Source: Geodermatophilus amargosae
Lineage (GTDB): Bacteria > Actinomycetota > Actinomycetes > Mycobacteriales > Geodermatophilaceae
DNA length: 64,000 nucleotides
Direction: 5' to 3'
Assembly (NCBI RefSeq): GCF_900116515.1
Contig: NZ_FPBA01000009.1
Coordinates: 1-64,000 of the forward strand
A model generated the notes under the pieces. That model was not told where the DNA came from. It did no database searches and saw only the letters and a list, made by a program, of their open reading frames with translations. Positions within the stretch are counted from its first letter, which is position 1, and every line of letters begins with the position of its first letter. The translations under genes and the position numbers were made by a program. Below, in pieces: positions 62,485-62,513 of the stretch.

Positions 62485-62513
62485 GTGCAGTTGCAAACTG
62501 TGTGCAATAAGGT
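62485..62513 (+). promoter_or_regulatory. Candidate cbiMNQ promoter
   Basis: GTGCAG (62485-62490) is followed by 17 nt and TAAGGT (62508-62513). The same hexamer pair occurs in front of the 16S gene (456-484). The start of transcription would be near 62520, giving a leader of about 40 nt. Confidence 0.5.
62491..62507 (+). promoter_or_regulatory. Nur-like operator in the cbiMNQ promoter
   Basis: TTGCAA-N5-GTGCAA fits the Nur (nickel-responsive Fur-family) box tTGCaa-N5-ttGCAA at 11 of 12 positions. It fills the spacer between the candidate -35 and -10, where a repressor would block RNA polymerase. This suggests nickel, not cobalt, as the controlled metal. Confidence 0.6.

Follow-up and report, generated by a model that had tools for sequence, protein, structure and literature searches.

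The stretch of DNA analysed here (the window) comprises 64,000 nucleotides of a contig of Geodermatophilus amargosae and holds, towards its end, the operon of an ECF importer. The operon sits between a divergent amtB and a convergent ftsY gene (both named from a reading of the open reading frames), and an amtB homologue occupies the same place at all 25 genus loci compared. The features of the locus are as follows.

60844..62214, minus strand: amtB (named from the ORF reading), divergent, the conserved left edge of the locus
62474..62490, plus strand: second Nur-like box, weaker than the main one and directly adjoining it, GTGCGA-GGCCC-GTGCAG
62485..62490, plus strand: weak candidate -35, GTGCAG, inferred, 17 bp upstream of TAAGGT
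62491..62507, plus strand: main Nur-like box TTGCAAACTGTGTGCAA, TTGCAA-ACTGT-GTGCAA, which takes up the whole 17 bp upstream of the -10
62508..62513, plus strand: candidate -10, TAAGGT, seen at 25/26 genus loci
62514..62559, plus strand: short leader; it has a likely ribosome-binding site at about 62547-62553, and no riboswitch was detected
62560..63264, plus strand: cbiM-family S component (NikM-like), GTG start, PF01891
63261..63599, plus strand: cbiN-like gene, PDGLE domain, PF13190
63601..64000, plus strand: cbiQ, PF02361 and TIGR02454, cut by the window end and continuing to position 64383 of the contig
64380-65126 of the contig, beyond the window: cbiO, ABC_tran, TIGR01166

The operon had been read from the sequence alone as cbiMNQ; these three genes stand, but it is really cbiMNQO, with cbiO just past the window end. 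Translation could also be taken to begin at a GTG at 62485, within the promoter, but this was rejected: the GTG-HVPDG start is kept in all 18 genus homologues, where a GGAGG- or GAGGAGG-like stretch precedes it (13/18 aligned). The window also contains, at its edge, the start of a minus-strand 16S rRNA gene (1-259) and an Actino-pnp RNA at 5598-5676.

The main box agrees in 11 of 12 letters with the published Nur-box of S. coelicolor, given as tTGCaa-N5-ttGCAA (PMC3919588), and lies exactly where the sequence-only reading had recognised TTGCAA-N5-GTGCAA, at 62491-62507. It is matched once in the window and not at all in 100 dinucleotide shuffles, and TTGCAA-N6-TGCAA has one exact match in the whole 5.87 Mb genome, namely this box. 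What had been taken for a single box is one half of a tandem, the abutting box at 62474-62490 having been missed; in this genome the upstream box is degenerate (8/12 letters). The two boxes form a tandem operator of 34 bp that runs up to the -10, TAAGGT. A pattern derived from the genus alignment, covering the tandem operator and TAAGGT, has one mismatch-free match in the window, and no match in 100 shuffles even with up to two mismatches allowed. One-mismatch sites elsewhere in the genome amount to four single sites and three near-copies, TAGCAATGCGCTTGCAA, at C10:10175, C14:312 and C40:141811 (L005, L006 and L008). These near-copies lie just upstream of genes for paralogous proteins starting MANNNKIVNQLRALVLLTKTEEQVART, and are probably one duplicated element.

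The actinobacterial -10 takes the form TANNNT, which TAAGGT fits. Of the promoter proposed earlier, this hexamer holds up and is conserved in the genus, but the -35 is poor: the candidate GTGCAG coincides with the 3' half-site of the upstream box, and a consensus promoter scan found no promoter. Only 46 nt separate TAAGGT from the GTG start at 62560, and an Rfam search finds no cobalamin riboswitch in the window, bearing out the earlier description of a short leader without one.

The operator is conserved across the genus. It is present as a tandem at the importer locus in 25 of 26 genomes, in the same register and followed by TAAGGT; the 26th (G021) has a single box, scoring 10/12, before a NiCoT gene and followed by GTAGGT, without TAAGGT. 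The conservation in related genomes on which the sequence-only reading depended is thus found at 26/26 genus loci. Extraction of the operators required GCAATAAGGT, so the invariance of TAAGGT is partly a product of selection. In the 25 tandem genomes the upstream box matches at 8-12 of 12 letters and always abuts the main box, the four TGC cores are near-invariant, and TGCRA-N6-TGCA phasing is conserved over the 34 bp upstream of the -10. An exact-pattern search of the 26 genomes returned 21 distinct sites, 19 of them at the importer locus, against 2 matches for the reversed control pattern. A 34-mer model gave 25 matches (E 4e-8 to 9e-5), one per genome and all at the importer locus; because the model was built from these same 25 sites, the informative part is the lack of a second strong site in any genome, the next best standing at E 0.02.

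The same box had also been expected near other nickel genes, and here the expectation fails. No box above 8/12 was found at sodN in this and five further genomes, at this genome's urease locus, or at the nur loci of the 26 genomes, so that at the loci examined nickel genes besides the importers do not show it. There may nevertheless be a looser, single-box Nur regulon in the genus.

Behind this operator stands one of two unrelated importers. The window-type cbiM is found in 18 of the 26 genus genomes, and cbiM, N, Q and O are all present in 18/18 of these ECF loci. All eight genomes that lack it carry a NiCoT permease (identity at least 59%); only one of the 18 genomes with window-type cbiM has a NiCoT as well, at 48% identity and elsewhere. 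In seven of the eight, the NiCoT gene fills the X position of the same amtB-operator-X-ftsY arrangement, and the operator before it is the same tandem; in G021, whose contigs are short, a NiCoT gene is found in the interval from the start of amtB to ftsY. G021 is the most divergent genus member and has two NiCoT genes (contigs C260 and C172; L241 and L243), of which the one next to ftsY is that with the single box. The NiCoT cassette scores 181.9 bits against PF03824 (cut-off 27.7), its translations show the RHAFDADHI-type motif of the NicO/HoxN family, and its best NCBIfam match is NicT, at 334 bits for a partial protein and under the cut-off of 450. No cbiM, N, Q or O was detected at E<1e-8 at the seven NiCoT loci compared, and the 18 ECF loci gave no match to NiCoT at E<1e-20.

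The joins between operator and cassette can be located in eight pairs of genomes with different importers. Their DNA is 84-97% identical across the left flank and the operator and on beyond the -10; homology then breaks 5-12 bp past the start of TAAGGT in one clade and 64-70 bp past it in the other, and resumes downstream of either cassette, reaching ftsY. On a tree of the nur region from the 26 genomes the importer types need 6 changes, which is hardly fewer than with shuffled labels (mean 7.0; 129 of 500 shuffles as low as 6). A single NiCoT clade is rejected on this tree (p-AU 6e-62), on which G021 is a long branch; with G021 removed there are still 5 changes, forced by starred branches. 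The ftsY and amtB trees each require 7. The nur-region tree thus implies five or more changes of importer type.

Such a pattern could also arise if importers were sorted rather than exchanged, an ancestor having held both in tandem and each lineage having lost one. Among the seven tandem-operator NiCoT genomes the divergence of the NiCoT genes roughly follows that of the flanks and nur, so both cassettes are old in the genus, which counts in favour of sorting. Against this, none of the 25 loci compared carries both importers, and near relatives align through the operator and again downstream, around whichever cassette is present. We therefore regard sorting as unlikely and favour exchange in place.

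The left flank of the locus may have a history of its own. AmtB of this genome is 96% identical to that of G005 and G010, and 75-77% identical to that of its nearest relatives G007 and G002; on the amtB tree its gene groups with that of G010. The amtB gene thus looks mosaic within the genus, and recombination may have affected this flank as well.

As to the demand for nickel, Ni-SOD is encoded in 26/26 genus genomes, which would account for the retention of an importer behind the switch in all of them. Urease is present in 15/26, being found in 9 of the 18 ECF genomes and 6 of the 8 NiCoT genomes (one a fragment); its presence does not track importer type, and it was rejected as a reason for the choice of importer.

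Which metal the window importer carries is suggested by its S component and by the operator. The nearest solved structure to the S component is 4M58 (97.9 bits, against 39.1 for 5X3X), which we take to be NikM2 of Thermoanaerobacter tengcongensis, although its PDB name reads CbiM. NikM2 has been called nickel-specific (PMC4525288). Against the cbiM model TIGR00123 the window protein scores 63.8 bits, under the cut-off of 184. The genome encodes a second CbiM, 32% identical to the first, on contig C28 (5210-5917 of the 16 kb stretch examined, L208). This protein is nearest to 5X3X (272 versus 55 bits) and passes the TIGR00123 cut-off; its gene lies among genes whose reading is cobalamin-type, some 4 kb downstream of a cobalamin riboswitch, the only one that the genome was found to contain. 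No Nur box above 8/12 occurs in the 16 kb stretch around it, and TGCA-N7-TGCA was found within 300 bp upstream of none of the 12 riboswitch-type cbiM genes whose upstream regions were read. The second CbiM is thus a probable cobalt system.

The operator might still be a Nur site in front of a cobalt importer, nickel repressing it to avoid mismetallation. ECF importers of nickel and cobalt are often dual, and the CbiM family name points to cobalt, as do the nearest NCBIfam models for the window S component, labelled 'cobalt transporter CbiM' (all matched below their cut-offs). We consider this possibility improbable, given that the genome has the separate, 5X3X-like CbiM near a riboswitch, that the window protein is nearer to 4M58 than to 5X3X (98 versus 39 bits), and that in sister species a permease with NicT as its best NCBIfam match occupies the slot. 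An unrelated nickel importer behind the same switch hints at the cargo of both. The affinity of the S component is in itself no proof of metal; under the model of a tandem Nur operator, the window importer is therefore probably a nickel system, NikMNQO-like.

The presumed repressor is encoded in the same genome, as control by a nickel-responsive Fur-family protein would demand. Three proteins reach the cut-off of the Fur family (PF01475). By the reading of neighbouring ORFs, one lies beside znuABC and is identified as Zur, one beside a catalase gene and is FurA-like, and the third beside a ygfZ-like gene and is the Nur orthologue, whose best match among solved chains is the Nur structure 3EYY, at 119.5 bits against 56.8 for the next. 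We take the nickel-site histidines of Nur to be those at positions 33, 70, 72, 86, 88, 90 and 126. The Nur orthologue of this genome has His at all seven; within the genus six positions are His in 26/26 Nur proteins and position 86 in 24/26, and the organism's own Zur and FurA lack His at 70, 72 and 126. The nickel sites of Nur are reported to comprise four plus three histidines (PMC7055735), and ygfZ adjoins nur in S. coelicolor too (PMC4531530). Nur orthologues are present in 26/26 genus genomes and in 19/19 further genomes searched, drawn from those whose cbiM loci were examined.

With three Fur-family proteins in one genome, and Fur-family boxes resembling each other, it is conceivable that Zur or the FurA-like paralogue binds the operator and that the importer answers to zinc or to iron or peroxide. 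Motif and locus led us to reject both as the binder, and we judge this very unlikely. The box follows the published Nur-box letters, a Nur orthologue is present in every genome searched, and neither the zur nor the furA locus has a Nur-like box above 8/12. Zur itself, beside znuABC, has a different palindrome at the start of znuA, TGAGAATGGTTCTCA, which matches 11 of 15 letters of a Zur motif, compared with at most 9/15 for the importer region. This Zur-like palindrome lies on contig C12 (L331:2843-2857) and contrasts with the Nur box.

The box extends well beyond the genus. A search of genome contigs yielded cbiM loci of which the best 80, from Geodermatophilaceae, Nocardioides, Streptomyces, Intrasporangiaceae-type genera and others, include 11 apparently shared with the genus genomes and three (L133, L134 and L136) from one assembly. 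A box of at least 9/12 lies within 150 bp upstream at 79 of these 80, as against 2.5% of shuffled upstream sequences for the 26 Geodermatophilaceae loci, 4.4% for the 54 others, and 0 of 554 in-gene windows. The sole exception, L151, has no clear box before cbiM, yet its genome has Nur. A NiCoT match was found in 99 of 296 genomes of the class, and among the best 30 NiCoT loci a box of at least 9/12 is present in 28 and of at least 10/12 in 19, scanning the 430 bp ahead of the conserved motif; shuffled upstream sequences reach these levels in 4.7% and 0.4% of cases, and in-gene windows in 0/30. That the box is chance, or purely a promoter element with no regulator, is hardly credible: it does overlap a promoter, itself expected to be conserved, but its TGCRA-N6-TGCA phasing spans 34 bp upstream of the -10, in other genera it precedes importers with other spacings to the start codon, and it is common to two unrelated importer families.

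We thus arrive at a reading in which a tandem Nur operator places a probably nickel-transporting cbiMNQO under repression by Ni-Nur, in an exchangeable importer slot, and to this whole we assign a probability of roughly 0.87. When nickel is sufficient, Ni-Nur dimers would occupy both adjoining 17-bp boxes. One would lie over the -35 and the other over the spacer as far as the edge of the -10, so that RNA polymerase would be kept out and cbiMNQO would not be transcribed. We infer this mode of action from where the boxes lie and from Nur being a known repressor of sodF and nikABCDE. As nickel falls, Nur would release the operator and the importer would be made, supplying the Ni-dependent SOD and urease. 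The locus would behave as an exchangeable slot, the same operator serving cbiMNQO or the unrelated NiCoT permease. On comparative sequence evidence, this is a probable nickel-repressed importer operon, and the Nur control proposed at the outset is supported.

Some elements of this scheme have precedents. In S. coelicolor, Nur is reported to repress the nickel importer operon nikABCDE as well as sodF (PMC7055735), and the Nur there shares with ours membership of the Fur family, the nickel-site histidines, the Nur-box and the location of nur beside ygfZ (PMC3919588, PMC7055735). Here, by contrast, the predicted target is an ECF importer or a NiCoT, there are two abutting boxes, and the sodN, urease and nur loci examined have none. 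NikR, a regulator of another family, has likewise been predicted to govern unrelated importers, NikMNQO and NiCoT, as a single nickel repressor; exchange in place behind one operator is not described in the parts of that survey available to us (PMC2667541). In Mycoplasma genitalium a Fur-family repressor likewise acts on a CbiMNQO-like ECF system, MG_302-304, for which a role in nickel uptake is discussed, but there the regulator is a Mycoplasma Fur and not Nur, and the operon has no S component gene next to it (PMC6968530). An actinobacterial NiCoT, hoxN of Streptomyces mirabilis, has its transcript lowered 6.3-fold on nickel exposure, but is plasmid-borne, and the main text of that paper does not name Nur (PMC9195940). 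CbiMNQO systems under a cobalamin riboswitch belong to the same transporter family, and the second CbiM here looks to be of that kind, but the window operon lacks a riboswitch, and its S component is of another subtype.

It is, then, already known that Nur controls nickel importers, and a CbiMNQO-like system under Fur has been reported (PMC6968530). In the literature searched, selectively, we found nothing linking Nur to cbiMNQO or NiCoT. Work on S. coelicolor reportedly mentions an ECF-type nickel operon, so we do not claim priority for Nur control of ECF importers. That literature yielded no account of the tandem operator, of its occurrence across actinobacteria ahead of importers of both the ECF and the NiCoT type, or of unrelated importers repeatedly replacing one another in place downstream of a single operator.

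There is a reasonable case for seeing the locus within this genus as a fixed operator 'socket' with a replaceable importer 'plug', swapped at least five times, with one detectable tandem Nur operator per genome and the join either just past the -10 or close to where translation starts. It would then be the operator, rather than the family label, that names the metal, and this would be nickel for the many actinobacterial CbiMNQO systems labelled 'cobalt' that have the operator. A table in a 2009 survey lists, among 40 actinobacteria, 13 with Cbi/NikMNQO-type systems whose metal is unassigned, 2 with the metal assigned as cobalt and 0 as nickel (PMC2667541). A Nur operator in common with NiCoT permeases would be a direct and cheap way to assign nickel to such systems. 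The exchange locus would, moreover, be a natural experiment, in which near-sister species with the same promoter and flanks differ in whether an ATP-driven multi-subunit importer or a single-gene permease stands behind them.
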